Shown here one piece after another: positions 6,810 through 29,879 of a DNA stretch of 64,000 bases (the first letter of the stretch is position 1; each line of letters opens with the position of its first letter). The position numbers and the translations under genes were made by a program. The DNA is from Lachnotalea glycerini. GTDB lineage: Bacteria > Bacillota > Clostridia > Lachnospirales > Lachnospiraceae. Under the pieces are notes generated by a model. The model made no database searches. It was not told the DNA's origin and was given only the letters and a program-made list of their open reading frames with translations. The stretch is from NCBI RefSeq assembly GCF_003201285.1, contig NZ_QICS01000004.1, forward strand, positions 62,001 to 126,000, given 5' to 3'.

Positions 6810-9305
6810 ATGGAGAATCAAGTATTGAGTATACGAGGCATGACATGTGCAGCTTGTGCCCAGCGAATAGAGAAAACGGTACGTAAGCTTTCCGGTATTT
6901 CACAAGCAAATGTGAATCTGGCGAGTGAGAAGCTGTTTGTGGAGTACGACAGTGAGGTGTTGAAACTCTCGGCTATTAAAGAGTCTGTTGCCAAAATAGG
7001 CTATCAGGTAGTAGAAAAAAGTGACAACCCAAAAGTGACAATTCCAATTGGTGGTATGACTTGTGCTGCATGTGCACAGCGAATCGAAAAGGTGATTAAA
7101 AAGCTGGATGGGGTAGAAGATGTATCGGTAAATTTTGCAACTGAAAAAGCAACTGTTACTTATCAACCTCAGCAAGTCCGACTTTCAACAATGAAAGAGG
7201 CAATCGAAAAGATAGGCTACAAGGTACAAGAAATCAATAAGGCAGACGCTGCAGATGAGGATAGGGTTCGAAAGCAAAAGGAGATTACGACTCTCTGGAC
7301 GAAATTTATTGTTTCAGCTGTGTTTTCGCTGCCACTATTATATATTGCAATGGCACCGATGATTAAAATTATCCGATTTCCTTTCCCGTCGGGGCTTGAC
7401 CCAATGAATTATCCCCTAATTTATGCCTTGGCTGAGCTTCTGCTGGTAATACCAGTTATCTGCGTCGGATACAAATTTTATACCGTGGGCTTTAAAGCTC
7501 TGTGGAACAGAAGCCCAAATATGGATTCACTGATTGCAATCGGTACAACTGCCGCTGTAATGTATAGCTTATACAATACTATACAAATTGCAGAAGGCAA
7601 TTTTTTGGCGGTAGAGTCCCTCTATTATGAAACGGCAGGAGTTATTATTACACTGATATTACTAGGCAAATCACTCGAAGCTGTTTCGAAAGGCCGAACC
7701 AGTGAAGCAATTAAAAAGCTAATGGGACTTGCTCCAAAAACAGCCATTATCTTGCAAGGTGACATAGAAAAAGAGATTCCGATTGATGAGGTAGAAATTG
7801 GGGATATCATTGTTGTTAAGCCAGGAGCTAAAATCCCTGTAGATGGTATGGTGACGGATGGGCACACAGCCATAGATGAATCTATGCTGACAGGTGAGAG
7901 TATGCCGGTGGATAAGAAAGCAGGAGACAGCGTTTATGCAGCTTCACTCAATACGACCGGAACACTTCAATTTAAAGCTGAAAAGATTGGAAGTGATACG
8001 GCACTGGCACAGATTATCAAGCTGGTAGAGGACGCGCAGGGTTCCAAAGCACCGATAGCACAGATGGCAGATATTGTATCTGGTTACTTTGTGCCTGTGG
8101 TTTGTCTGATTGCTTTGTTTGCAGGAATTGCTTGGTACTTTGGCACGGGCGGTGACATTAAATTTGCACTTACCATTTTTATTTCCGTACTGGTCATTGC
8201 TTGCCCATGTGCGCTTGGCTTAGCAACACCTACTGCTATTATGGTAGGGACGGGAAAGGGTGCGGAAAACGGAATACTGATTAAGGGCGGCGAAGCTCTA
8301 GAAACGGCACATAAAATCAATACCATTGTATTTGACAAGACGGGTACGATTACAGAGGGAAAACCTACAGTTACCGATGTACTGACTGCAAAGGAAGGTG
8401 ATGCAGATGACTTGCTTCGGCTTACAGCTTCGGCTGAAAAATCCTCTGAACATCCGCTTGGTCAAGCTATTGTCGCAGGAGCACAGGCTAAGGGACTTGA
8501 ACTTTATAAGGTCGACAACTTTAATTCCATTACAGGGCGAGGAATTGAAGCAATGATTAATGGTAAGATGATTCTTGCTGGAAACCGCAAGTTAATGGAG
8601 GAAAGAAGCATTTCTCTTTCAGAGTTGGAAGCTGCATCTGATCGTCTGGCAAGTGAAGGAAAGACTCCGATGTATGTTGTAGTTGACAAAAATCTGGCAG
8701 GTATTGTAGCCGTAGCCGATGTGGTAAAGGCTTCCAGTAAGGCAGCAATCGAAAGTATTCACAAGCTAGGGATTGAGGTAGCAATGATTACCGGTGATAA
8801 TCAAAAAACTGCAGCAGCGATTGCCAGACAGGTTGGAATTGATAAGGTACTGGCTGAGGTTTTGCCACAGGATAAATCAAATGAGGTCAAAAAGCTGCAA
8901 GGCACAGGCCGTAAGGTGGCGATGGTAGGCGATGGAATTAATGATGCACCGGCATTAGCACAGGCCGACATCGGTATCGCCATAGGATCAGGAACTGATG
9001 TAGCAATGGAATCTGCCGACATTGTATTGATGAGAAGTGATCTGATGGATGTTCCAACGGCTATTGATTTGAGCAAACGAACCATACGCAATATCAAGCA
9101 GAATTTATTCTGGGCATTTGGATACAATGTGATTGGTATCCCCATTGCAGCAGGAATCTTGCATCTTCTTTTTAACGGACCGTTACTTAACCCGATTTTT
9201 GCGGCTGCGGCCATGAGCCTAAGTTCCGTTTCTGTTTTGACTAATGCATTACGGTTGAAGAGATTTAAGGCCACACGTCAAGAAGGGACAGGTGCATCAT
9301 CATGA
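6810..9305 (+). CDS. copA: Copper-exporting P1B-type ATPase
   Basis: 831 residues, full length. Two N-terminal metal-binding HMA domains carry GMTCAAC (Cys13/Cys16 and Cys85/Cys88). The membrane metal site is Cys-Pro-Cys at 465-467 (IACPCALGLATPT), the phosphorylated Asp is 509 in DKTGT, and TGES, HP (SSEHPLG) and GDGINDAPA motifs are present. CPC with Cys-type HMAs indicates Cu(I) export across the plasma membrane. RBS AGGAGATTTT precedes ATG 6810. The gene overlaps the next one (ATGA), then comes copZ, so export pump, lipoprotein and chaperone are made together. No CsoR or CopY gene is adjacent; the divergent HxlR-type regulator stands in that place. Confidence 0.97.
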   Translation: MENQVLSIRGMTCAACAQRIEKTVRKLSGISQANVNLASEKLFVEYDSEVLKLSAIKESVAKIGYQVVEKSDNPKVTIPIGGMTCAACAQRIEKVIKKLDGVEDVSVNFATEKATVTYQPQQVRLSTMKEAIEKIGYKVQEINKADAADEDRVRKQKEITTLWTKFIVSAVFSLPLLYIAMAPMIKIIRFPFPSGLDPMNYPLIYALAELLLVIPVICVGYKFYTVGFKALWNRSPNMDSLIAIGTTAAVMYSLYNTIQIAEGNFLAVESLYYETAGVIITLILLGKSLEAVSKGRTSEAIKKLMGLAPKTAIILQGDIEKEIPIDEVEIGDIIVVKPGAKIPVDGMVTDGHTAIDESMLTGESMPVDKKAGDSVYAASLNTTGTLQFKAEKIGSDTALAQIIKLVEDAQGSKAPIAQMADIVSGYFVPVVCLIALFAGIAWYFGTGGDIKFALTIFISVLVIACPCALGLATPTAIMVGTGKGAENGILIKGGEALETAHKINTIVFDKTGTITEGKPTVTDVLTAKEGDADDLLRLTASAEKSSEHPLGQAIVAGAQAKGLELYKVDNFNSITGRGIEAMINGKMILAGNRKLMEERSISLSELEAASDRLASEGKTPMYVVVDKNLAGIVAVADVVKASSKAAIESIHKLGIEVAMITGDNQKTAAAIARQVGIDKVLAEVLPQDKSNEVKKLQGTGRKVAMVGDGINDAPALAQADIGIAIGSGTDVAMESADIVLMRSDLMDVPTAIDLSKRTIRNIKQNLFWAFGYNVIGIPIAAGILHLLFNGPLLNPIFAAAAMSLSSVSVLTNALRLKRFKATRQEGTGASS

Positions 9306-10015
9306 AAAGAATATTTAAACGATTTTTAGCTGCTATGTCAGGATTCGTTGTCATGATTTCACTTACCGCATGCTCAGGATGGAATGAACTGGATGTAGTT
9401 GGTCAACAATCCATAAAATCCTTTGATGAGGTATTAAAGACATTACCTGATCAGATAACTGTGGATGAAACTAATGCCAGTTGGTCATTGGAGGCACCGG
9501 ACGACTCGGCACGCTTTATATGGAGTCAGGATTATAGTAAAAGTCCTTTGTATGATGTAATGATAGAGGTGGATGCTACTCCTTTTATCAATGCAGGTCT
9601 TGATCCAGACAAGCTTCCAAATAACTATACTTATGATAATGGTATGCTAAAGGTGGGCACAAAGCTTGGTAAAGAGGAGCTGACTTATAGTGCTAATACA
9701 ACTCCACTCACCTCGTATGAGCAAATAGTCAATCACTACCGTACTTCAATTAACTATCATACTGCACTTGATCATTTCGGTGTGAAGCTGGGTGACGGTA
9801 ATCTGTTTGAATGGGCTAAGGACATGAAAACGAATGGGTCTACAGAGGAAAACCAAGACAAGGATATTGTATTTGTATTAAATTCAGAACCTCTTATTGA
9901 AGCAGGTACGGTACCTGATAAGGTAGAAGAATGGACTTATGCGCAGGTAGAAGTAATGGAAAATGGGAAAACACTACAGGTATATAAATTTTTAAAGCCG
10001 TTTGATATAAAATAG
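9302..10015 (+). CDS. Lipoprotein of unknown function in the copper operon
   Basis: 237 residues with a lipoprotein signal peptide (lipobox LTAC, Cys about 24). ATGA overlap with copA shows cotranslation. The mature part looks like two related halves: RFIWSQDYSK...VEVD-like strand plus PFINAGLDPDKLP, and LFEWAKDMKT...VFVLNSEPLIEAGTVPDKV. This repeat is seen directly by comparing the halves. There are few His, Met or Cys residues, so direct copper binding is not obvious. An extracytoplasmic role tied to copper export is inferred from the operon. No family recognised. Confidence 0.85.
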   Translation: MKRIFKRFLAAMSGFVVMISLTACSGWNELDVVGQQSIKSFDEVLKTLPDQITVDETNASWSLEAPDDSARFIWSQDYSKSPLYDVMIEVDATPFINAGLDPDKLPNNYTYDNGMLKVGTKLGKEELTYSANTTPLTSYEQIVNHYRTSINYHTALDHFGVKLGDGNLFEWAKDMKTNGSTEENQDKDIVFVLNSEPLIEAGTVPDKVEEWTYAQVEVMENGKTLQVYKFLKPFDIK

Positions 10016-10094: not shown

Positions 10095-10304
10095 ATGATT
10101 CAATCAGTAATTAAAGTAGATGGAATGGCTTGTGACCACTGTGTCAAAGCAATTACCAATGCGTTGAAAGCTCTGCCGGGTATTGGCAGCGTAGTAGTTG
10201 ATTTAAAAGCAGGTACCGTAGCAGTGGAATATGACTCTTCACAAAGCAAACTTGATCAAATCAAATCAGAGATTGAAGAGCAGGGTTATGATATCATAGA
10301 GTAA
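10095..10304 (+). CDS. copZ: Copper chaperone, single HMA domain
   Basis: 69 residues, a single heavy-metal-associated ferredoxin-like domain with GMACDHC (metal-binding Cys at 13 and 16) and the usual YD..SQ..LDQIKSEIEEQGYDI ending. It is preceded by AAGGAGG. It would carry Cu(I) in the cytoplasm to the CopA HMA domains. It lies 79 bp after the lipoprotein gene, so it may be in the same transcript or have its own promoter. Confidence 0.93.
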   Translation: MIQSVIKVDGMACDHCVKAITNALKALPGIGSVVVDLKAGTVAVEYDSSQSKLDQIKSEIEEQGYDIIE

Positions 10305-11884: not shown

Positions 11885-12583
11885 ATGGAATTAATTGAAC
11901 AATTAATGAAATACGGACTCACAAGGCAGGAAGCAATCATCTATATGACGCTGCATTCCGATGGCGAACTGACCGGATACGAAGTTGCGAAGCTTACAGG
12001 GATTTCACGCTCAAATGTGTATACTGCACTGGCAGGATTGGTAGAAAAAGGGGTTGCCTATGTATTAGAGGAAAGTGTGTCGAAATATACTCCCGTAAGC
12101 TTTCAGGAATTCAGCAGTAATTTCATTCATAATCTGCAAGAAACGCGAAATGAGATAATAAAGAGTCTTCCTGCCAGAAAGGAAGAATCACAGGGCTATA
12201 TAACAATCAGAGGGAACAAAAATATACTGGACAAACTCAGAACTATGTTGCTCGAAACTCAATATCGTATTTATGTAGCAGTAAGTAGTGAAATTTTGGG
12301 TCAGTACATCAAAGAGCTTAATGTGCTTGTGGAAAAAGGCATTAAAGTGGTTATCATTGTGGATAAACCGTTTGAGTTAGATGGAGCGATTATTTATTTT
12401 AAGGAAAAAATTGATTGTCAAATCCGTTTAATTTGTGATTCACAAAAGGTTTTGACAGGACAGTTAAGTAACAAGGGAGAAGCAACCTGTCTGTATTCAC
12501 AAAATCACAATCTTATCGATGTTTTTAAGGAAATGCTTCAAAATGAAATAACACTTATCCAGACTGGGAAAACAACTAATTGA
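11885..12583 (+). CDS. TrmB-family transcriptional regulator
   Basis: 232 residues. An N-terminal winged helix (about 5-70: GLTRQEAIIYMTLHSDGELTG, then VAKLTGISRSNVYTALAGL) is typical of TrmB, followed by a coiled linker (about 75-105) and a C-terminal PLD-like effector domain (about 105-228). AGGAAGGGGTACGTAAC precedes ATG 11885. It probably shares the lysA transcript and may control it, but the effector cannot be read from the sequence. Confidence 0.87.
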   Translation: MELIEQLMKYGLTRQEAIIYMTLHSDGELTGYEVAKLTGISRSNVYTALAGLVEKGVAYVLEESVSKYTPVSFQEFSSNFIHNLQETRNEIIKSLPARKEESQGYITIRGNKNILDKLRTMLLETQYRIYVAVSSEILGQYIKELNVLVEKGIKVVIIVDKPFELDGAIIYFKEKIDCQIRLICDSQKVLTGQLSNKGEATCLYSQNHNLIDVFKEMLQNEITLIQTGKTTN

Positions 12584-12959: not shown

Positions 12960-14972
12960 ATGGGAAAAAAAATTGTTATCGTAGGAGCTGGGTATGCCGG
13001 AATACTGACTGCTAAAAAGCTTGCAAAAAGATTGAAGAAGTACGATGATGTCAAAATTACTATCATTGATAAAAAACCATTTCATACCATGCTTACTGAG
13101 CTGCATGAAGTGGCAGCGGACCGAGTGGATGAAGACAGCATTAAGATTAGTTTAAAAAAGGTATTTGCAGGGAGAAAGGTAGAGGTAAAGTTAGATACAG
13201 TTATCTCTATAGATTTTGAGAAAAAAGATGTAATAGGTGAGCTGGAAGCTTATTCGTATGACTATTTAGTGCTGGCGGCCGGATCTAAGCCAACTTTTTA
13301 CAACACACCTGGAGCAGAGGAATTTACTTATAAACTTTGGTCATATGATGATGCAATTATTTTAAAAGAACGTATTTTAAATGTGTTTCGTCAGGCAGCT
13401 TGCGAGACAAATAAAGAGATTAGAAAAAAACTATTAACTTTTTATGTAGTCGGTTCAGGCTTTACCGGTGTAGAAATGATCGGAGAGTTGGCTGAATATG
13501 TGCCTATCCTTTGTAAACAATTTGATATAGATAGAAAAGATGTAACTTTAGTGAATGTAGATGGACTTAGCAGGCCAATACCTAATATGCCTGAGAAGCT
13601 TTCGAATAAGGTAACGAGACGCCTTGAAAAAATGGGAGTTTCACTTTCATTTGATACATTTGTGTCTAGTGTGGGTGTAGACTTTATTGAATTAAAGAAG
13701 AATGATAAGATAGAGCATCACAGCGCTGGGACGGTAATCTGGGCTGCCGGGATTCAATGTTGTGACATAACCGGTGAAGCCGGAAAATGCCTTGAAACGC
13801 AGCGTGGCGGTCGCATTCAGGTAGATCAATATTTAAAATCAACAAAAGCCGATGACGTTTATGTTATTGGGGATAATATGTACTTTGTTCCGGAGGGGGA
13901 CAAGTTTCCGGTTCCACAGATGGTTGAAAACTGTGAGCAAAGTGCAGATACAGCAGCTCATAATCTTGTATGTGAAATTACAGGAAAGAAAGACAAAAAG
14001 ATTTACAAGCCGGCTTTTCATGGTGTTATGGTTAGTATAGGAGGACGTTATGCAGTTGCACATGTAGGATTGCCAAATCATTTTTTTAGTCTGGCATCTT
14101 TCTTTGCAATGTTTGCAAAGCACTTTATAAATATTATTTATTTTGTACAAGTGTTAGGTTGGAACAAGGTATTTAGCTACATGAAACATGAATTTTTTAC
14201 CATACGTAATTGCCGTAGTTTTGTGGGAGGGCATTTTTCAAACCGCACACCAAGCTTTTTGCTGGCACCTTTGAGGGTATGGCTTGGAGCAGTCTGGTTA
14301 TTTGAGGGAATTATGAAGATTGTAGAGGGATGGTTTGTAAATCCTATGCTCACGAATTTCTTTGGTGGAGCAAACAGTTGGTATAACAGTATTTTAAATA
14401 CAGCGGTCGCAGAAAGTACAGATGCAGTGACATCAGCAACCGGAGCAGCAGCACAAGCGACAGATGCAGTATCAGCGGCAACTGGGGCATCGGATGCGGT
14501 AGCAACAGCAGCAACTGCGGCTGGAAAGGTTTTGATGAATTTTGATATTTTAGGACTGATTCGGATTATTTTTGTAAGTGGTAAGGATTTAGCCAGTTCT
14601 ACTATTAGTGATTATGCATTTAAACTTGATATTCCAATGATGAATTGGTTCCTTGATAAATTTATCCTCCCATATGACGGTGTACAAATTGCAATGCAGA
14701 TATTTATTGTAGTTGCAGAAATTTTAGTTGGCTTGGCTTTACTAGGTGGGTTATTTACATCACCAGCGGCAGCATTTTCACTTATTTTGCAATTTATGTT
14801 TGTTTGCACGACAGGGTTATATCTTGGAACGTTTTGGATGATATTTGCAGGAGTCGCAGTTTTGATCGGAGCAGGAAGAACGTTTGGCTTAGATTATTAT
14901 GCAATACCGGCGTTAAAGAAAGTATGGAAGAAATTACCGTTAATTAGAAAGTTGTATCTATACAATGATTAA
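12960..14972 (+). CDS. ndh2: Type II NADH dehydrogenase with DoxX-like membrane domain
   Basis: 670 residues. The first ~400 form an NDH-2/FAD-NAD(P)H oxidoreductase: FAD-binding VGAGYAG (8-13), NADH-binding VVGSGFTGVE (about 161-170), AAGIQC and the late FAD motif VYVIGDN. The rest is membrane: a helix near 375-395, then a DoxX-like segment (about 431-660) starting LAPLRVWLGAVWLFEG. An Ala/Thr-rich insertion (about 482-520) interrupts it. The enzyme passes electrons from NADH to a membrane quinone without pumping protons. Listeria Ndh2 of the extracellular electron transfer system has the same two-part layout. The stop overlaps the next start (14965). The genes that follow make the quinone tail, attach it, and receive electrons outside the cell. 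Confidence 0.9.
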   Translation: MGKKIVIVGAGYAGILTAKKLAKRLKKYDDVKITIIDKKPFHTMLTELHEVAADRVDEDSIKISLKKVFAGRKVEVKLDTVISIDFEKKDVIGELEAYSYDYLVLAAGSKPTFYNTPGAEEFTYKLWSYDDAIILKERILNVFRQAACETNKEIRKKLLTFYVVGSGFTGVEMIGELAEYVPILCKQFDIDRKDVTLVNVDGLSRPIPNMPEKLSNKVTRRLEKMGVSLSFDTFVSSVGVDFIELKKNDKIEHHSAGTVIWAAGIQCCDITGEAGKCLETQRGGRIQVDQYLKSTKADDVYVIGDNMYFVPEGDKFPVPQMVENCEQSADTAAHNLVCEITGKKDKKIYKPAFHGVMVSIGGRYAVAHVGLPNHFFSLASFFAMFAKHFINIIYFVQVLGWNKVFSYMKHEFFTIRNCRSFVGGHFSNRTPSFLLAPLRVWLGAVWLFEGIMKIVEGWFVNPMLTNFFGGANSWYNSILNTAVAESTDAVTSATGAAAQATDAVSAATGASDAVATAATAAGKVLMNFDILGLIRIIFVSGKDLASSTISDYAFKLDIPMMNWFLDKFILPYDGVQIAMQIFIVVAEILVGLALLGGLFTSPAAAFSLILQFMFVCTTGLYLGTFWMIFAGVAVLIGAGRTFGLDYYAIPALKKVWKKLPLIRKLYLYND

Positions 14973-15942
14973 TAACAATACCTTGGATGAAAATATGGAA
15001 ACACTTAATTATGATGAAGCAGTGAAGCTTGTGAAGGCAGAAGTAGAACGGGCATTAGTAAAATCGCCGTTTATTATTCGTGAGTACTTAAGCCATTTGG
15101 CTTTAACTCAAGGAAAATATATCAGAGCAACCTCTGTTATTGTTGCTGCTCAGGATGGGAACGGTTATGTCCATTCTGATGCAGTTAAGGCAGCAGGAGT
15201 TATAGAACTGATACACCTTGCATCACTTGTGCATGACGATATTATTGATAATGCTGATATAAGAAGAGGTAAACCTACTTTGCAGAATAAATATGGCAAG
15301 AGAACTGCTGTTATCTGTGGAGATTATCTTCTTAGTCTGGCTCTTAAGATGGCTTCAGAAGCTAATGACAAAAATAGAGGTACTGAGATTGATTTTCCTG
15401 ATTATATCAGCAGAATTTGCCTGGGAGAATTGGAACAGCATATTAATAATTTAAATTTGAACCTTTCTATTTTTCAGTATTTAAAGATTATATCAGGAAA
15501 GACTGCCGCATTGTTTGAAGCATCTTTTTTTGCAGGAGCGGCGGTGTTAAAAGTAAGTGATGAAGAGCTTAGAAATTATAAGCAAATTGGATATTATATC
15601 GGAATGATATTTCAATTGTCGGATGATTGTATTGATTTTGATACTTCGGCTGATATAGCTAATAAGCCTGTTCAATCTGATTATGAACAGGGTGTGATTA
15701 CGTTACCGTTAATTCATGCCTTTCAAAATCTGAAAGAGTTTAAACAAAAAGCAGCAAAAGCAAAGATTACAAGAGAAGAAATCAATCAGGCAATAATGAA
15801 GACAGGTGGTCTTGCTTTTACAAAAGGACTGATTAAGAGATACTATGATAAAGCAATGCATCGTATCAATGAACTGGAGATTAACGAGGAAAAGAAAACG
15901 AAAATTATTTTTATCCTAAATAAAGCAGCACGCATTCAATAA
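14965..15942 (+). CDS. dmkB: Polyprenyl diphosphate synthase (DmkB-like)
   Basis: 325 residues, trans-isoprenyl diphosphate synthase. The first Asp-rich motif is DDIID at 91-95 followed by RRG; the second is DDCID at 220-224. It condenses isopentenyl diphosphate onto an allylic primer to make the isoprenoid tail of a quinone. It overlaps ndh2 by 8 bp and precedes a UbiA-family gene, so the tail is most likely for (demethyl)menaquinone rather than for undecaprenol. Chain length cannot be read reliably. Named by analogy with Listeria dmkB. Confidence 0.88.
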   Translation: MINNNTLDENMETLNYDEAVKLVKAEVERALVKSPFIIREYLSHLALTQGKYIRATSVIVAAQDGNGYVHSDAVKAAGVIELIHLASLVHDDIIDNADIRRGKPTLQNKYGKRTAVICGDYLLSLALKMASEANDKNRGTEIDFPDYISRICLGELEQHINNLNLNLSIFQYLKIISGKTAALFEASFFAGAAVLKVSDEELRNYKQIGYYIGMIFQLSDDCIDFDTSADIANKPVQSDYEQGVITLPLIHAFQNLKEFKQKAAKAKITREEINQAIMKTGGLAFTKGLIKRYYDKAMHRINELEINEEKKTKIIFILNKAARIQ

Positions 15943-15996
15943 ATAATTAGATGAAATTGGATGCTTGAATTTCCTGTATTTAGGGAGGAGGACACT

Positions 15997-16896
15997 TTGA
16001 TTAAAAAGTTTTTTAATTATATAGAGATAAAAACAAAAATCACAAGTACGTTTACATTTGCTATGACGATAGGATTTTTATTATATCATAAGCAGGTAAT
16101 TAATTGGAAACTAACAATCATTTTCTTTTTCTCCATGTTTTTATTTGATTTAGCAACAACTGCGATTAATAATTATATCGATTCTAAAGATAATGGACAA
16201 ATCTTGGATTTTAGCAGAAAGACTTCGCTGTATATTATATATATTTTATTTGCAATTAGTACAGTGCTGGGACTTTATTTGGCGTATTTATCAGACCTTG
16301 TTATTTTAGCAACAGGTGCGGTGTGTTTCTTATGCGGTGTACTTTATACATATGGACCGGTTCCGATATCAAGACAACCTCTTGGTGAAATTTTATCCGG
16401 ATTTTTTTATGGTGTCATGATACCATTTATTCTAATGTATATTAACACGCCTTCCGGGACTTTTTTGTCCTATCAGATGAGTCTGGAATCTGTTTATTTA
16501 AAGCTTCAAATTGCGCCAATCATCAGTCTGCTTCTTTTCGCGGCAATTCCTTTTTGTCTCACGGCGAATATTATGCTGGCAAATAATATCTGTGATTTGG
16601 AAAAGGATATTAAAGTAAAACGATTTACACTACCCTATTATATAGGAGAAAAAGCACTTCCTTTATTCGCAGGGTTGTATTACGCTACTTATATTGCCAC
16701 TGTTTTAATGGTAATTTTTAAAATATTGTCACCGATATGCCTATTTTCTTTGCTTTCAATCATTTTAGTACAAAAGAATATTAATCAGTTTTTGAAAAAG
16801 CAGGAAAAAGCAAGTACTTTTATGTGTTCCATAAAAAACTTTGTTATAGTTATGGGAGCAAATACTACAGTTATATTTATAAGTTTATTCTTCTGA
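15997..16896 (+). CDS. dmkA: UbiA-family prenyltransferase (DmkA-like)
   Basis: About 299 residues, eight or nine membrane helices. Two Asp-rich motifs face the active site: NNYIDSKDN (about 58-66) and NNICDLEKDIKVKR. The family transfers a polyprenyl chain to an aromatic acid such as 1,4-dihydroxy-2-naphthoate, giving demethylmenaquinone. Start: GGGAGGAGG lies five bases before TTG 15997, giving a natural N-terminus MIKKFFNYIEIKTK; the upstream ATG at 15961 lacks a ribosome site. Third gene of the ndh2 operon. Confidence 0.87.
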   Translation: MIKKFFNYIEIKTKITSTFTFAMTIGFLLYHKQVINWKLTIIFFFSMFLFDLATTAINNYIDSKDNGQILDFSRKTSLYIIYILFAISTVLGLYLAYLSDLVILATGAVCFLCGVLYTYGPVPISRQPLGEILSGFFYGVMIPFILMYINTPSGTFLSYQMSLESVYLKLQIAPIISLLLFAAIPFCLTANIMLANNICDLEKDIKVKRFTLPYYIGEKALPLFAGLYYATYIATVLMVIFKILSPICLFSLLSIILVQKNINQFLKKQEKASTFMCSIKNFVIVMGANTTVIFISLFF

Positions 16897-17001
16897 TCTG
16901 TTGAGATTGGACTGAAATAAAAATTAATCAATATAAGATTTGGTTTAGTGTGATAAGCACAACTTGTCTTATTACCGCTTTGGCGGTGGAATGGAGGAAA
17001 T

Positions 17002-18108
17002 ATGAAAAAGATGACATCGTTATTATTAAGTTCAGTATTGGTCGTTTCTTTACTCGCTGGCTGCGGCAGCAACAAAACAACAGAAGAATCGACAACTGAA
17101 CAGACAACACAAACAGAGGAATCTGCTGGAACAACGGATACGAAAGAAACAACAACTGATACAACAACTTCTGATGGAACGGGTGTAAAAACCGGTATTG
17201 CAATTAATACGTCACTTGCCAGTTCAACGGATGCGACAGCGGATGCAGAAGGAGTGGCGCAGACGGACTCATTAGCTGTAGCCGTATCTGTTGACGCAGA
17301 TGGAAAAATCCTGAATTGTAAAATTGATTCTGCTCAGACTAAAATTAACTTTTCAACAGACGGAAAAATTACTACTGATCTGACTACTGAAATGAAATCA
17401 AAGCAAGAGCTGGGAAGTGATTATGGAATGGCGAAAGCGTCCGGAATCGGAAAAGAGTGGAATGAGCAGGCAGATGCTTTTGCTGCATATGTAGTTGGAA
17501 AAACAATAGAAGAGGTAAAAGGAATTGCTGTTACAGACGAAGGTGTGGCATCAGATGCGGACTTAGCTTCTTCCGTAACGATTCATATTGGAGATTTCAT
17601 TTCTACTGTTGAAAAAGCGGTAACAAATGCGAAGGATCTAGGTGCATCAAGTACAGATAAGCTGGGACTAGCTATTAATACTACTATTGATAAATCAACG
17701 GATGCAACGTCGGATGCAGAAGGAGTGGCTCAGGCATATTCCTATTATACAGTTGTAACAACAAGTACAGATGGCAAAATTACAAGCTGTGTAGTTGATT
17801 CAACTCAAGGAACTGTTAACTTTGATACCAAAGGTGCTATTACAACTGACTTAACAGCACAAGTTCAGACAAAGCAAGAGCTAGGAAGCGATTATGGAAT
17901 GGCGAAAGCGTCTGGCATAGGAAAAGAATGGAATGAACAAGCAGATGCTTTCTCAACCTACGTAACTGGAAAGACAATAGATGAAGTAAAGGGAATCGCA
18001 GTTTCTGATGAAGGCTTAGCAGAGGATACCGACTTAGTAAGTTCGGTTACGATTCACATTGCACCATTAATTTCAATTGTTGAAAAAGCTGTGGCAAATG
18101 CACAATAA
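17002..18108 (+). CDS. pplA: FMN-binding lipoprotein with two FMN domains (PplA-like)
   Basis: 368 residues. Lipoprotein signal with Cys21 (LLAGCGSN), a Thr/Glu-rich linker (22-60), then two homologous FMN-binding domains (about 62-210 and 221-367). Each begins with STDAT.DAEGVAQ, contains KQELGSDYGMAKASGIGKEW, and ends in a DL(A/V)SSVTIHI motif (SSVT at 190-193 and 347-350). That last motif sits where ApbE-family enzymes attach FMN to Thr (consensus SGAT). It would be anchored outside the membrane and carry electrons from the quinone pool to external acceptors. GGAGGAAAT precedes ATG 17002. A small ACCGC/GCGGT hairpin lies just upstream. Confidence 0.9.
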   Translation: MKKMTSLLLSSVLVVSLLAGCGSNKTTEESTTEQTTQTEESAGTTDTKETTTDTTTSDGTGVKTGIAINTSLASSTDATADAEGVAQTDSLAVAVSVDADGKILNCKIDSAQTKINFSTDGKITTDLTTEMKSKQELGSDYGMAKASGIGKEWNEQADAFAAYVVGKTIEEVKGIAVTDEGVASDADLASSVTIHIGDFISTVEKAVTNAKDLGASSTDKLGLAINTTIDKSTDATSDAEGVAQAYSYYTVVTTSTDGKITSCVVDSTQGTVNFDTKGAITTDLTAQVQTKQELGSDYGMAKASGIGKEWNEQADAFSTYVTGKTIDEVKGIAVSDEGLAEDTDLVSSVTIHIAPLISIVEKAVANAQ

Positions 18109-18153
18109 AATTTATTTATAATAGAAATAGGTTTATTTCAGACACCTGTTTGA

Positions 18154-18189
18154 TTGGGGATGCATTTCAATTCTAAGATGCATCCTCAA
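18154..18189 (+). terminator. Hairpin terminator after the FMN lipoprotein gene
   Basis: TTGGGGATGCAT pairs with ATGCATCCTCAA with one wobble; loop of 12 bases, followed by TTTAAATT. It may reduce read-through into the ApbE-type gene. Confidence 0.6.
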
Positions 18190-18329
18190 TTTAAATTCAT
18201 AGCAAGATGAAATGTTTTAATGACTCATCTTGCTGAATTGCCACGGAGCTTCTTAAGGGCTTAAGGTATTAATAAATCCTGAATGCTGTCTGGTTACAAT
18301 AGATTAGGGAAATATTAGAGGTGAAAGTA

Positions 18330-19379
18330 TTGGCAAAAAGAGTATTGAGTATTTTCTTACTTTGGGTAATGACAATTAATTTAACAGCTTGCTCTGGTAC
18401 AAAAGAATCACGATATGAAGCCAGTTTTTTGGAATTATTTGATACAGTTACTACGATAGTGGGATATGCTGAGAATAAAGATGAGTTTACCAAGTATGTT
18501 CAAATAATTTATAATCAATTAAGTGAATATCATCAATTGTATAATATATATAATGACTATGAAGGAATTAACAATATTAAAACAATTAATGATAATGCTG
18601 GAATTAGTCCGGTTAAGGTGAATCAAAAAATTATAGATTTATTAAAATTTTCAAAGAAAGCTTATGAAGAAACGAATGGAAAAACAAATATTGCATTGGG
18701 GTCTGTATTGTCTGTATGGCATGACTACCGCACTCGTGGTATAGAAGATCCTGAAAATGCACAGCTTCCACCTATGGATTTGCTAGAGGAGAAATTCAAA
18801 CATACAGATATTAATAATATAATCATTAACGAAGAGGAGTCAACTGTGTATATACAGGATTCGTTGATGAGTATAGATGTCGGGGCAATCGCAAAAGGTT
18901 ATGCAGTGGAAGCAGTCAGTCAGTATATAGAAGAGCAAGGATTTACTCATGCTGTGATATCAGTTGGGGGAAATGTAAGAGCACTTGGTACAAAAATAAT
19001 AGATGGTAAAGAACAGGCGTGGAGTGCAGGAATTCAAAATCCTGATTCCGAAAGTGAAAATACTAATTTATATATTCTAAATTTAAAAGACTACTCGCTT
19101 GTAACAAGTGGTGTATATCAAAGATATTATACAGTAGATGGAAAGGAATACCATCATATTATTAACCCGAGTACTTTAATGCCGGCCGATTATTTTTTAT
19201 CAGTTTCTATTGTATGCAAAGAATCAGGCAATGCAGATGCGTTGTCTACGGCAGTATTTAATATGCCTTACGAGGACGGTGTAACATTAATCGAGTCTTT
19301 GGAAGAAACCGAGGCTCTTTGGGTATTCAAGGATGGTTCAATGAAATACAGTTCAGGTTTTGACAAATTTATCAAGTAG
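18330..19379 (+). CDS. fmnB: FAD:protein FMN transferase (ApbE/FmnB-like lipoprotein)
   Basis: About 349 residues. Lipoprotein signal peptide with lipobox LTAC. ApbE landmarks: SIDVGAIAKGYAVEAV (Mg and FAD site), GGNVRALG, YHHIINPSTLMPA (HxIxxPxT motif) and GNADALSTAVF. The enzyme takes FMN from FAD and links it to Thr in FMN-binding domains, here surely those of the lipoprotein encoded just before. Start: GAGGTG lies six bases before TTG 18330; a GTG at 18321 is the alternative. It closes the electron-transfer locus, followed by a long bidirectional terminator. Confidence 0.92.
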   Translation: MAKRVLSIFLLWVMTINLTACSGTKESRYEASFLELFDTVTTIVGYAENKDEFTKYVQIIYNQLSEYHQLYNIYNDYEGINNIKTINDNAGISPVKVNQKIIDLLKFSKKAYEETNGKTNIALGSVLSVWHDYRTRGIEDPENAQLPPMDLLEEKFKHTDINNIIINEEESTVYIQDSLMSIDVGAIAKGYAVEAVSQYIEEQGFTHAVISVGGNVRALGTKIIDGKEQAWSAGIQNPDSESENTNLYILNLKDYSLVTSGVYQRYYTVDGKEYHHIINPSTLMPADYFLSVSIVCKESGNADALSTAVFNMPYEDGVTLIESLEETEALWVFKDGSMKYSSGFDKFIK

Positions 19380-19387
19380 GAAATAAG

Positions 19388-19449
19388 ACAAAGTGGCAAG
19401 TCCCTTATAACTTTATGATTAAGGAGTTATAAGTGGCTTGTCACTTTGT
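19388..19449. terminator. Long bidirectional terminator between fmnB and uxuB
   Basis: A 25-bp stem (ACAAAGTGGCAAG... with ...CTTGTCACTTTGT, ending in TTATAACT/AGTTATAA) with two wobbles and one mismatch around a short loop. It serves both convergent genes; the right arm touches the uxuB stop. Confidence 0.85.
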
Positions 19450-21065
19450 TAGATTGTTACATATTTATTTAAGGCCGCCTCAATTGCGCCTTCACCGATA
19501 ATCATTTCTGCAAAATAATCACAAACAAGCTTTGCCAGTCCAACTTCACACAAATCAATACCAAATATAGTTTTGTCCTGAAGTAGTGGCTTTAAACTGC
19601 TGTATGCATCTACATGATCACCAAGTTTTATTGTATTTACATAAGGGCATACACGATCCAATAATGGATCCGGGCTTAATTCAAATGAGTTACCCTTATC
19701 ATCTATTGCCATAAGATAACGAAGCCATCCTGCGAAAACAAGAGGAATATATTTTAAATCCAATACATTCAAATCGGAAGAAGCCACGTAAGCCTTTATG
19801 GTTTCTCCAAAGCGGATTGCCAGTTTTTGTGATGTATCAGTTGCGATTCTTTGCGGTGTATCAGGCATAAATGGATTAGGAATACGCACATTTACAACTG
19901 TATCAATAAATTCTTTGGGATTAATAATACCTGGATTTACAACAACAGGCAAACCTTCTTGATATCCAATCAGTTCTACTAGCTTCTTAAGGATAGGGTT
20001 TTGCATTTCTTTTGAAATCAAATCATAGCCAAGTAAACATCCAAATATTGCAAGTGCAGTATGCAAAGGATTTAAGCAGGTACACACTTTCATTCGTTCT
20101 ACCTTATCTACGGTTTCTCTGGTGGTAAAAATAAATCCTCCCTTTTCTAGTGCTGGTCTACCGTTTGGAAAGCTGTCTTCAATCACCAGGTATTCACATT
20201 CCTCAGCATTTACAAAAGGAGCAATGTAGGTGTTTTTGGTGGTAACAAGAGGAGCAAGTCCTACTAATCCATCTTTATTTAGAAGGTCACAAACAAAGGA
20301 ATCCGGTCTGGGAGTGATTTTGTCTATCATCGTACAAGGGAATGAGACATTAGAAGAATCATTCAGGTATTCACAAAATCCTTTTTCCACAAGTCCATTT
20401 TCCTCCCAACTCTTACCAAAGGCAATCATAGCATCATATAATTTATCACCGTTGTGAGAACAATTATCCATACTTACCATAGCAATCGGCTTCTTGCCAT
20501 TTTGAAATCGGGTATATAATAAGGAAGCAACCTTTCCAATGTAGCTTTCTGGGTCAGCAGGACCATTTAACATATCCTGTGTTACATTAGGCAGTTCTTT
20601 GCCAAGTCCATCCACAAGGCTGTACCCCTTTTCTGTGATGGTAAAGGAAACCATTTGCAGAGAGTTTGCTTTAAATATTTCTTTCAGCCTGTCAAAATCT
20701 TTTCTATTATGAGAATTCACTGTTAAAGATTCCACAACACTTCCAACTACAGTTTTGGAAACGCTGCCATCGGACTTAAGAGTTACTAAAATGCTTAAAT
20801 CATCATGAGGATGATTTATTTTTTCTATTATTTCATAATCATAACCTTCTGCTACAATTAAACCTCTGTCTAATATGTTTTTATTGAGCAAAGTTTGTAC
20901 AACATTTGCCTGAAAAGCACGAAAAATATTGCCGGAGCCAAAGTGTATCCAGAAAGGATTTTCTTTAGTGGCTTTTTTAACCAAAGCACTGTCAAATTGG
21001 GGAAGCTCATAGCCCAATGCCTCCCATTCCGCTTTATTTGATAAATCAGATTGTAATAATTTCAT
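19449..21065 (-). CDS. uxuB: D-mannonate oxidoreductase (fructuronate reductase)
   Basis: 538 residues, polyol-specific long-chain dehydrogenase family. Typical marks: NPFWIHFGSGNIFRAF near the N-terminus (dinucleotide site), VSMDNCSHNG, FPCTMIDKITPRP, and the VCTCLNPLHTALAIFG helix with the catalytic region. It interconverts D-fructuronate and D-mannonate with NAD(H). GGAGGAGTTTCT precedes the start. uxuA lies 19 bp upstream in the same operon, completing two steps from fructuronate to 2-keto-3-deoxygluconate. Confidence 0.93.
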   Translation of the reverse strand: MKLLQSDLSNKAEWEALGYELPQFDSALVKKATKENPFWIHFGSGNIFRAFQANVVQTLLNKNILDRGLIVAEGYDYEIIEKINHPHDDLSILVTLKSDGSVSKTVVGSVVESLTVNSHNRKDFDRLKEIFKANSLQMVSFTITEKGYSLVDGLGKELPNVTQDMLNGPADPESYIGKVASLLYTRFQNGKKPIAMVSMDNCSHNGDKLYDAMIAFGKSWEENGLVEKGFCEYLNDSSNVSFPCTMIDKITPRPDSFVCDLLNKDGLVGLAPLVTTKNTYIAPFVNAEECEYLVIEDSFPNGRPALEKGGFIFTTRETVDKVERMKVCTCLNPLHTALAIFGCLLGYDLISKEMQNPILKKLVELIGYQEGLPVVVNPGIINPKEFIDTVVNVRIPNPFMPDTPQRIATDTSQKLAIRFGETIKAYVASSDLNVLDLKYIPLVFAGWLRYLMAIDDKGNSFELSPDPLLDRVCPYVNTIKLGDHVDAYSSLKPLLQDKTIFGIDLCEVGLAKLVCDYFAEMIIGEGAIEAALNKYVTI

Positions 21066-21084
21066 AGAAACTCCTCCGTTTATG

Positions 21085-22152
21085 TTATCGGCAGCTTTTT
21101 AATATAGCTTCCCATAATCCATTTAAATAGGTTGCACCAAGAGCACGGTCATATAAGCCGTATCCAGGCATTGCCACTTCGCCCCAGATCATTCTTCCAT
21201 GGTCTGGACGAATTGGTCCTTCAAAGCCAATATCGTAAAGAGCTTTCATAATTTCAAACATATCAAAGGTACCATCTGACGATAAATGAGCAGATTCTTC
21301 AAAATCAGTCGGAGAGTTAAATTTCAAATTTCTAACGTGTGCAAAGTGAATTCTCCCCTTTAAAGCACGAATCATTTCGGGAAGGTTATTAGCCAGATTG
21401 GTTCCATAGGATCCGGAACAAAAAGTGATTCCATTATGTGGATTATCAACCATCTTCATCATGCGTTGAATGTTTTCTAAGTTTATAATGATACGAGGAA
21501 GTCCGAATACACTCCAGGCAGGATCATCTGGATGAATTGCCATATTAATATCATACTTGTCGCAGGTAGGCATAATACGTTGAAGAAAATATTTTAAATT
21601 TTCAAAAAGCTTTTCACTATCAACATCTTGATACATTGCAAACAGTTCCTTAATTTTGCTCATTCTTTCAGGCTCCCAGCCAGGAAGAACAAATCCGTTC
21701 GAACTAGAATCAATTGATTCAAACATGTTTTCAGGATTTATTTTATCAATATCGTCTTGATTGTATGCAAGAACGGTCGAACCATCGGCTCTTTTTCTTG
21801 CTAATTCAGAACGAGTCCAGTCAAATACAGGCATGAAATTATAGCATACAAGGTGAAGGTCTTCTTTACCCAGATTTTCAAGTGTTTGAATATAATGATC
21901 AATATACATGTCTCTGTCGGGAGAGCCGACTTTAATTGCATCATGTATATTAACACTTTCAATGCCTGATACATGAAGTCCTGCTTTTGCTATCTCTTCT
22001 TTCATTGCGCGTATTTCATCCACGCTCCAAACTTCACCCGGTTTTGAGTCGTAAAGTGTAGTGATTACGCCTGTTACACCAGGAATTTGTCTGATTTGTT
22101 CTAGTGTTACACTATCATGCTTACTGCCGTACCATCTAAGTGTCATTTCCAT
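21085..22152 (-). CDS. uxuA: Mannonate dehydratase
   Basis: 355 residues, the usual UxuA length. Starts MTLRWYGSKHDSVTLEQIRQIPGVTGVITTL; later motifs MAIHPDDPAWSVFGLPRI, GITFCSGSYGTN, IHFAHVRNL and IRPDHGRMIWGE contain the His, Cys and Asp residues that hold Mn and act in catalysis. It dehydrates D-mannonate to 2-keto-3-deoxygluconate. First gene of the uxuA-uxuB operon and divergent from an AraC-type regulator. The isomerase and kinase/aldolase steps are not in the window. Confidence 0.95.
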   Translation of the reverse strand: MEMTLRWYGSKHDSVTLEQIRQIPGVTGVITTLYDSKPGEVWSVDEIRAMKEEIAKAGLHVSGIESVNIHDAIKVGSPDRDMYIDHYIQTLENLGKEDLHLVCYNFMPVFDWTRSELARKRADGSTVLAYNQDDIDKINPENMFESIDSSSNGFVLPGWEPERMSKIKELFAMYQDVDSEKLFENLKYFLQRIMPTCDKYDINMAIHPDDPAWSVFGLPRIIINLENIQRMMKMVDNPHNGITFCSGSYGTNLANNLPEMIRALKGRIHFAHVRNLKFNSPTDFEESAHLSSDGTFDMFEIMKALYDIGFEGPIRPDHGRMIWGEVAMPGYGLYDRALGATYLNGLWEAILKSCR

Positions 22153-29639: not shown

Positions 29640-29879
29640 AATTTACCTTTAAACATGGCAATGACGAGGAATAGTATATAAATGAAAATCTCAGAGAGAG
29701 AGTTAATGGTGTGAGACTCTTGTTTGGATTTTATAGAACCTGCCTTTGAGCTCTATATGAAAGTATAGCGTATATTCTGCGATAAAGAATCTAAGCAGAG
29801 CTGTTTTAAACAGTTAATTAGGGTGGTACCGCCGATATAGCCTTTCGGTCCCTTTCAGGGGATTTGAAGGGCTTTTTTA
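29640..29879 (+). promoter_or_regulatory. Proline T-box riboswitch with terminator
   Basis: The T-box sequence AATTAGGGTGGTACCGCC (29816-29833) is unmistakable. CAATGACGAGGAATAGTA near 29650-29680 matches the conserved Stem I distal features. The specifier loop reads GAACCTGCC, so the codon CCT at 29739-29741 selects uncharged tRNA-Pro. A terminator hairpin (AGCC...GGTCCC with GGGATTTGAAGGGCT, then TTTTTT) ends near 29878. Uncharged tRNA-Pro should favour antitermination and turn on proS, the gene 240 bp downstream. Confidence 0.93.

Follow-up and report, generated by a model that had tools for sequence, protein, structure and literature searches.

Five adjacent genes of Lachnotalea glycerini raise the question of whether they form a flavin-based extracellular electron transfer (EET) locus and, if they do, how electrons would pass from the membrane quinol to the cell exterior. 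The genes lie at 12960-19379 on the forward strand of the window, by which we mean the whole 64,000-nt stretch of DNA analysed, and encode Ndh2, DmkB, DmkA, a PplA-like lipoprotein and ApbE (Table 1).

Gene content and quinone source

Under an operational definition, a FLEET locus is an NDH-2 with a transmembrane extension in an apbE-linked cluster (PMC8238504), and the window locus has this arrangement. An initial annotation had described a compact flavin-based EET locus with five Listeria-type functions; by gene content this description was borne out as a FLEET-type locus, and the gene calls proved right in kind. Its reading has changed with respect to the scope of the EetB statement and the source of the quinone, and it had overlooked that the outer loop of Ndh2 holds flavinylation-like motifs. 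The same gene order was found again in many other loci, and the arrangement is thus not a chance one. Judged by sequence, this form of the flavin-based EET locus is common among clostridia, and its core gene set, gene order and kind of loop motif are shared with clusters of Konateibacter massiliensis, Ca. Galacturonibacter soehngenii, Anaerocolumna, Ruminiclostridium and Herbinix. Promoter (37 against 30.2, sd 6.2) and terminator (3 against 3.7, sd 1.7) scans were uninformative. An upstream TrmB-type regulator was considered as a further part and rejected, since it is missing beside the cluster in both same-genus loci examined.

Table 1. Features of the locus, in window coordinates.
Feature	Position	Strand	Basis or remark
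ndh2, type II NADH dehydrogenase (aa ~1-415) with 4-TM DoxX/DoxD-like membrane domain	12960..14972	+	Pfam, structure match, Listeria homology
Ndh2 extracytosolic TM1-TM2 loop, aa ~456-572	14325..14675	+	Ala-rich disordered core (aa 482-520) and a part predicted structured
Flavinylation-like motif 1, DAVTSAT, aa 488-494	14421..14441	+	Ndh2 loop
Flavinylation-like motif 2, DAVSAAT, aa 502-508	14463..14483	+	within second copy of a 42-nt direct repeat
dmkB, polyprenyl diphosphate synthase	14965..15942	+	start codon 8 nt inside ndh2; polyprenyl_synt E 4.3e-57
dmkA, UbiA family, DHNA polyprenyltransferase type	15961..16896	+	NCBIfam match and identity to E. gilvus menA
pplA-like lipoprotein, two repeats	17002..18108	+	profile link to Listeria PplA
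Candidate PplA site 1, DLASSVT, Thr193	17560..17580	+	aligns with Listeria PplA Thr143
Candidate PplA site 2, DLVSSVT, Thr350	18031..18051	+	aligns with Listeria PplA Thr265
apbE/fmnB, FAD:protein FMN transferase, clade 'ApbE1' apart from Listeria FmnB	18321..19379	+	PF02424 E 1e-66

The FLEET locus of Listeria monocytogenes comprises ndh2, eetA, eetB, dmkA, dmkB, pplA, fmnA and fmnB, and five of these functions are common to the window. Ndh2, ApbE and DmkB are homologous to their Listeria counterparts, and PplA is linked by profile comparison. The window locus differs in being a compact one-direction operon without EetA, EetB or FmnA (RibU was likewise not found within it), and its ApbE belongs to another clade. 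The earlier statement that EetA and EetB are absent therefore holds for the locus. For EetB it does not extend to the genome, where a search returned a single PF07456 match on another contig (C1:705352-705777), adjoining a second ApbE (C1:704-706 kb). This one EetB-family gene would encode the FAD exporter subunit, a putative function, whereas many clostridial EET clusters include EetB themselves, with or without EetA.

In Listeria, EetB is reported to be a FAD-export ECF-S subunit and deletion of eetA to have no EET phenotype (PMC9973259), so both are probably maturation or accessory parts. In Enterococcus faecalis, by contrast, EetA mutants are defective; EET there requires EetB, PplA is not needed, and the study describes the step from quinol to iron as unknown (PMC9864754). 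The authors of the Lactiplantibacillus plantarum study place EetA in the electron path; there, flavin-dependent iron reduction requires ndh2 and eetA/B and not pplA, while DHNA-dependent EET does require pplA (PMC9888254).

The cell had also been credited with its own quinone pool, of which the prenylation part stood. DmkA has as its top NCBIfam match a DHNA polyprenyltransferase model (E 9.2e-71), at 238.5 bits against a curated cut-off of 316, and is 35% identical to E. gilvus menA. For the head group, searches of the genome gave three matches each for MenD and MenB, all below cut-off, and no match for MqnA, so the pool probably depends on imported DHNA. Across 26 genomes that encode the Ndh2 domain, MenB likewise never passed its cut-off; three of them reach about 137 bits against 342.7. 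This does not exclude FLEET membership, since an outside source is possible, with a precedent in the documented use of exogenous DHNA by L. plantarum (PMC8837199). We consider it unlikely that the quinone is something other than demethylmenaquinone, with DmkA prenylating another aromatic acid or free DHNA serving as a shuttle; the results for MenD, MenB and MqnA would fit this, as would the dispensability or minor effects of dmkA and dmkB in L. plantarum (PMC9888254), but DmkA is nearest to DHNA polyprenyltransferase models and the precedent for exogenous DHNA also speaks against it.

Sequence profiles indicate that the two-repeat lipoprotein is a distant relative of Listeria PplA. Its model is confident (pLDDT ~97 outside the N-terminal tail), and Foldseek with this model matched no structure at E 0.001. 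Pfam gave no FMN_bind hit and BLASTP nothing significant against Listeria PplA (E 0.11), whereas hhalign linked the two with probability 95.9 and E 5.5e-9; similarity to 2kzx was weak (phmmer E 0.025; profile 0.0019). The candidate sites read SSVT where Listeria has SGAT, and their final Thr/Ser is conserved. A further segment, STDAT, was dropped as a flavinylation site because its Thr varies in a 48-row alignment, whereas SSVT keeps its final Thr/Ser there.

Motifs resembling flavinylation sites in the Ndh2 outer loop

Ndh2 matches Pyr_redox_2 (E 6.7e-36) and the C. thermarum NDH-2 structure 4nwz (TM-score 0.95, normalised by target). The protein is 35% identical to Listeria Ndh2 over 656 columns, and the two share the same membrane extension. 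This extension resembles DoxX/DoxD, the small subunit of TQO: Pfam DoxX is over cut-off in Listeria Ndh2 and DoxD and DoxX in that of Acetobacterium bakii (relatives L190 and L162 are both above cut-off), while the window domain, also fused to NDH-2, is itself below. We compiled Ndh2 frames that are 540 aa or longer, contain no X and score above 150 in phmmer, a set that excludes truncated or N-containing frames, and reduced its 146 rows to 113 representatives under 90% identity. In all 113, the density of K+R in the TM1-TM2 loop is below that of both flanks, which supports its extracytosolic position. In the window protein, aa 482-520 of this loop have an AlphaFold pLDDT of ~30.

The outer loop of Listeria Ndh2 carries SGAS and that of Enterococcus gilvus TGAS, while the long window loop carries two motifs, each one change away from the published ApbE motif D-x-x-[S/T]-G-A-[S/T]: the canonical Gly is replaced by Ser in one and Ala in the other. 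A Gly-to-Ala change is reported to leave ~50% (PMC12052999). Digestion with trypsin would put the motif in a peptide of 70 residues in the window protein and of 60 in that of Listeria, so modified peptides may be missed with this protease. Across the representatives, D-x-x-[ST]-[GAS]-A-[ST] occurs in 79 of the 113 loops with 149 copies, up to seven per protein, as compared to a mean of 1.1 and a maximum of 7 motifs in 200 whole-loop shuffles. It has no copies outside the loop in the same proteins, though the looser [ST][GAS]A[ST] has 28 there. Strict D-x-x-[ST]-G-A-[ST] was found in 16/113 loops and [ST]GA[ST] in 29/113 representatives; 25/113 loops had neither D..[ST][GAS]A[ST] nor [ST]GA[ST].

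Enrichment was also assessed within the Ala-rich cores of the 75/113 loops that are long and have a core delimitable by pattern. The motif occurs in 65 of these cores with 130 copies (1000 core shuffles: mean 1.4, maximum 6), and 130 of the 203 Asp residues in the cores begin one. The copies are not independent, because the loop is repetitive, and among 180 patterns (the true motif and its permutations) one permuted pattern scored equally high (130 copies, 66 cores) and two came near (112 and 107). These features leave room for a possible, though rather less probable, reading as an ordinary clostridial FLEET system, where Ndh2 only reduces quinone, PplA is the sole flavinylated carrier and the loop, left unmodified, is a wall linker or amphipathic repeat whose composition and repetition produce the match. 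The cores are indeed 33% Ala and rich in Thr, Gly and Val, with tandem repeats, and the canonical Gly is present in only 12/131 core motifs, most clostridial copies having Ala or Ser instead. Composition alone, however, yielded no more than six motifs in the matched shuffles, and canonical [ST]GA[ST] is present in short Ndh2 loops of distant families as well as in Listeria and E. gilvus. Within the window clade, moreover, the Ndh2 sites come closer to the canonical motif than the PplA site SSVT does.

Seven loci from Acetobacterium and related bacteria (L158, L159, L161-L163, L167, L169) also argue against a product of repetition: their short loops keep one DAV[ST]SAT while the residues that follow vary. 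The 5-17 kb searched at each locus showed no recognisable PplA or ApbE; at L158, L162 and L167 the ORFs were read one by one. It is conceivable, but very unlikely in our judgement, that the loop is flavinylated and its flavins serve some end other than EET via PplA to minerals, such as redox sensing, iron uptake or a reductase outside the cell. The lack of a recognised PplA near ndh2 in these loci would agree with that, as would the many acceptors served by ApbE-linked systems (PMC8238504); against it, ndh2 stands together with PplA and genes for quinone prenylation in many loci.

ApbE clades and motif types

The window ApbE aligns with Listeria FmnB (chain 7esa, E 1.1e-39) through the VTSG, RY, YHHI and ALST-type stretches, and PF02424 aligns through the FmnB active-site region. 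Catalytic roles among these stretches are assigned partly from PMC12052999 and partly from general background on the family. In a tree of 53/83 ApbE rows (every second ApbE1 omitted), ApbE1 formed a clade apart from Listeria FmnB with 100/100 support, a monophyly partly built in because group labels came from best phmmer similarity; the genome's second ApbE sits on a long branch and its placement is unsure.

Motif type is associated with ApbE clade. Among the 68/113 Ndh2 representatives with one ApbE type in the locus, A/S-type motifs accompany ApbE1 in 46/52 as compared to 1/16 otherwise (Fisher p 1.7e-9, phylogeny ignored), while canonical [ST]GA[ST] showed no difference (14/52 vs 8/16, p 0.13). 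Window-type PplA was present in 64/65 ApbE1 loci (65 and 20 loci compared by clade, some places counted twice), which, with the conserved final Thr/Ser of its sites, suits the reading of PplA as the only flavinylated carrier. We had expected genomes with ApbE1 only to be without canonical FMN_bind proteins, and this failed: 32/32 genomes searched have such proteins, so ApbE1, where it is the sole one found, must be broad rather than exclusive in specificity. ApbE itself does not discriminate, since all 61 genomes tested have it.

A proposed route from quinol to exterior

On balance we lean towards a clostridial EET module in which Ndh2 is both the NADH-oxidising entry point and an ApbE substrate. 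In the route that we infer, the cytosolic FAD domain of Ndh2 would oxidise NADH and reduce a prenylated naphthoquinone, its tail made by DmkB and joined by DmkA to imported DHNA. FMN held covalently on Thr494/Thr508 of the flexible loop would reoxidise the quinol on the outer side of the DoxX/DoxD-like domain (Gln580, Glu587). From the loop, electrons would hop either onto the two FMNs carried by the PplA-like lipoprotein or straight onto soluble flavins or Fe(III). The FAD from which ApbE would attach these FMNs would leave the cell through the EetB-type transporter, whose gene lies on another contig. The potential of covalent FMN usually lies below that of demethylmenaquinone, and the step from quinol to FMN could thus be uphill. 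The L. plantarum results bear on the proposal in both directions: flavin-dependent iron reduction without a need for pplA favours it, and the pplA requirement of DHNA-dependent EET speaks against it. A functional analogy, with no sequence relation claimed, exists in NqrB/RnfD, polytopic membrane redox proteins with ApbE-attached FMN (PMC11334425); unlike these, the window protein would bear its flavin on a DoxX/DoxD-like domain joined to NDH-2.

More tentatively, the EET-type NDH-2 may be flavinylated across Bacillota, often at several sites (up to seven), with its outer loop as the missing quinol-to-exterior step. Acetobacterium-type loci suggest that Ndh2 and ApbE could be a minimal EET machine and PplA an optional extension. 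We found no earlier report of a flavinylated Ndh2 loop in the literature searched. Ndh2 flavinylation would account for the dependence of Enterococcus EET on the FAD exporter and not on PplA. If true, it would fill the quinol-to-exterior gap stated for E. faecalis (PMC9864754), a gap set against the reassignment of EetB and the eetA deletion result in Listeria (PMC9973259). It would likewise explain the need for flavinylation genes where PplA is dispensable, and a single point mutation could probe the step. A membrane NDH-2 would then join the list of ApbE substrates, and many Clostridia may have a quinone-scavenging electron outlet.

The locus and its distribution

The five genes of the extracellular electron transfer (EET)-type set named in the initial annotation are present and adjacent on the + strand, and four of the five were backed by family searches. 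The Ndh2 membrane domain was detected in 26 of 195 related genomes (own genome included; E <= 1e-5), in 47 of 398 genomes at phylum level (E <= 1e-15) and in 253 GTDB genome stretches, of which the best 80 were used. Several of these best 80 of 253 loci (for example L090, L098, L099, L102, L106-L110 and L117) carry the same compact Ndh2-DmkB-DmkA-PplA-ApbE set, and the window locus is thus a typical clostridial form. Neither EetA nor EetB was recognised in the examined DNA of these example loci. Three Acetobacterium loci (L158, L162, L167) hold a minimal Ndh2-DmkB-DmkA cluster with one DAV[ST]SAT site, and a small lipoprotein-like gene, not recognisable as PplA, upstream of ndh2. The TrmB-type regulator of the window is not a neighbour of the cluster at either of the two same-genus loci examined. 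Two PLSDB records (NZ_CP154629.1 and NZ_CP030101.1; 2.6 and 2.9 Mb) are entered as plasmids, and their size resembles that of entire chromosomes.

Coordinates of features in the window, on a second contig (C1) of the same genome and in Ndh2
Feature	Position	Remark
Lipoprotein-like protein	window 9302-10015	237 aa; no match in Pfam or NCBIfam
Small protein	window 10095-10304	reads as heavy-metal-associated; follows the preceding gene
TrmB-type regulator	window 11885-12583	immediately upstream of ndh2
EET locus	window 12960-19379 (+)	ndh2, dmkB, dmkA, pplA-like lipoprotein gene, apbE
Mannitol-dehydrogenase-family and mannonate dehydratase UxuA genes	window 19449-22152	convergent; adjoin the EET locus
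T-box leader	window 29652-29856	Rfam RF00230, 115.6 bits
EetB-family gene and second ApbE (L040)	C1:704360-705777	within C1:704-706 kb
Extracytosolic loop	Ndh2 aa ~456-572	TM1-TM2 segment
Ala-rich region	Ndh2 aa 482-520	disordered; holds both motifs
DAVTSAT	Ndh2 aa 488-494
DAVSAAT	Ndh2 aa 502-508
Segment also flagged by hydropathy scan	Ndh2 aa 519-542	strands in structure model

The absence of EetB, as initially annotated, holds for the locus and fails for the genome, which encodes two ApbEs and one EetB-family match, the latter adjoining the second ApbE. In two same-genus genomes (G001, G002), EetB immediately follows the cluster ApbE. The only FMN_bind match in the own genome lies in the apparent RnfG of an Rnf operon, and EetB and the second ApbE are possibly a FAD-export/flavinylation pair that also serves Rnf. 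Genes reading as acetate kinase and phosphotransacetylase lie within ~4 kb of this pair.

Of the quinone pool proposed in the same annotation, the prenylation genes dmkA and dmkB are borne out and the head-group genes are not, as MenD, MenB and MqnA gave no match above cut-off anywhere in the genome. In none of the 26 genomes that encode the Ndh2 domain did MenB exceed its cut-off of 342.7 bits; three had matches near 137 bits. The head group is probably imported; that a pathway was overlooked is possible but unlikely, given a genome completeness of 97.9%. Elsewhere, varying sets of UbiD-like, UbiX-like, second UbiA-like and ABC transporter genes, read from translations at five Ndh2 loci (L053, L175, L176, L184, L185), hint at a different head group, or at import of a precursor.

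Flavinylation-like motifs in the Ndh2 loop

The cytosolic NDH-2 part of Ndh2 resembles 4nwz (TM-score 0.95), and we read the membrane domain as four TM helices. K+R per 100 residues falls from 16.0 before TM1 to 4.0 in the loop and is 23.1 after TM4, and loop density was below both flanks in all 113 non-redundant Ndh2 representatives. Both window motifs directly follow TM1 and precede the hydropathy-flagged segment, so they would lie outside even if that segment were helical.

The ApbE motif is given as D-x-x-[S/T]-G-A-[S/T]; about half of flavinylation remains after Gly-to-Ala substitution, and Asp-to-Ala has a minor effect (available text of PMC12052999). The related form D..[ST][GAS]A[ST] occurred in 79 of the 113 loops with 149 copies (shuffles: mean 1.1, maximum 7), and nowhere outside the loop in these representatives. 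The strict motif was found in 16/113 loops (shuffle mean 0.3, maximum 2) and [ST]GA[ST] in 29/113 (mean 4.5, maximum 14), while 88/113 carried either D..[ST][GAS]A[ST] or [ST]GA[ST]. The looser [ST][GAS]A[ST] reached 92/113 loops, yet had 28 occurrences elsewhere in these proteins. Shuffling only the Ala-rich cores of long loops gave the same outcome as whole-loop shuffles. Among 180 permuted-motif patterns, one equalled the true motif's score and two came near, as would be expected where a single repeat fits several patterns; what weight the enrichment has comes from the ApbE motif having been known in advance.

Short-loop Ndh2s from distant families have one site (e.g., VDATTGAS, LVSGAS, LVSGAT; weaker, LVAGAS, LVSGSS), and the same loop holds TSGAS in Listeria and TTGAS in E. 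gilvus. In seven loci from Acetobacterium and kin, DAV[ST]SAT is invariant while the residues after it vary. From these sequence patterns, Ndh2 itself is predicted to be flavinylated. Two loci (L055 in G176, L056 in G189) have Ndh2 loops without motif-like residues. FMN_bind has 9 and 14 matches in the respective genomes, and a neighbour of Ndh2 at L055 is a lipoprotein bearing three SGAT sites; such FMN_bind or SGAT proteins are a possible alternative to loop flavins there.

The lipoprotein and the ApbE clades

The window lipoprotein matched neither FMN_bind nor, by BLASTP, Listeria PplA. Profile-profile comparison of its family with PplA-type lipoproteins gave an alignment of 277 columns (hhalign, probability 95.9, E 5.5e-9). 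In it, DLASSVT and DLVSSVT fall opposite the two SGAT sites in Listeria PplA, where FMN is attached to Thr143 and Thr265 (PMC8906456, in part). The last Thr/Ser is kept in both repeats. The structure model is confident (pLDDT ~97 in repeats), and Foldseek matched it to no structure at E 0.001. We take the protein for a relative of PplA whose motif has diverged and which is likely to be flavinylated.

Cluster ApbEs split into two clades at 100/100 support. The window ApbE belongs to the first and Listeria FmnB to the second, a division partly built in, as group labels were taken from similarity; the own second ApbE has a long branch and an unsure placement. Ala/Ser-type motifs occurred in Ndh2 loops of 46/52 window-clade versus 1/16 FmnB-clade loci (phylogeny uncorrected), and [ST]GA[ST] showed no significant difference (14/52 versus 8/16, p 0.13). 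Window-type PplA was found in 64/65 versus 0/20 loci, and an SGAT-type lipoprotein was recognised in 3/65 versus 4/20. Ndh2 motif form and PplA kind thus co-vary with ApbE clade, uncorrected for phylogeny. An exclusive ApbE "dialect" was unsupported, with canonical FMN_bind proteins in 32/32 genomes searched, among them the genomes that have a single ApbE.

A proposed electron path

Electrons would pass from NADH to the FAD of Ndh2, to quinone, to FMN on the Ndh2 loop, and then through PplA FMN or free flavin to the acceptor. The DoxX/DoxD likeness of the Ndh2 membrane domain, which passes the cut-off for Listeria and A. bakii and falls short of it for the window protein, and the conserved TM2 residues Q580 (113/113 representatives) and E587 (109/113) would be compatible with a putative quinone-reactive role of this domain.

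In E. faecalis, Ndh3, quinone, EetA and EetB are required for EET and PplA is dispensable, and the quinol-to-iron route is stated as unknown (PMC9864754, in part). In L. plantarum, flavin-dependent iron reduction requires ndh2 and eetA/B, with pplA, dmkA and dmkB dispensable, and pplA is required for DHNA-dependent EET and for flavin-dependent anode reduction (PMC9888254, in part). The loop-FMN path would accommodate both puzzles, with the Enterococcus loop represented here by that of E. gilvus. No report of Ndh2 flavinylation was found in the literature searched, which comprised partial texts including PMC8238504, PMC9973259, PMC9888254, PMC9864754, PMC8837199, PMC8906456, PMC12052999 and PMC11334425, few subscription papers, and not the original Listeria report. 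Of the findings on this locus, the prediction that Ndh2 is itself flavinylated is the one worth pursuing.
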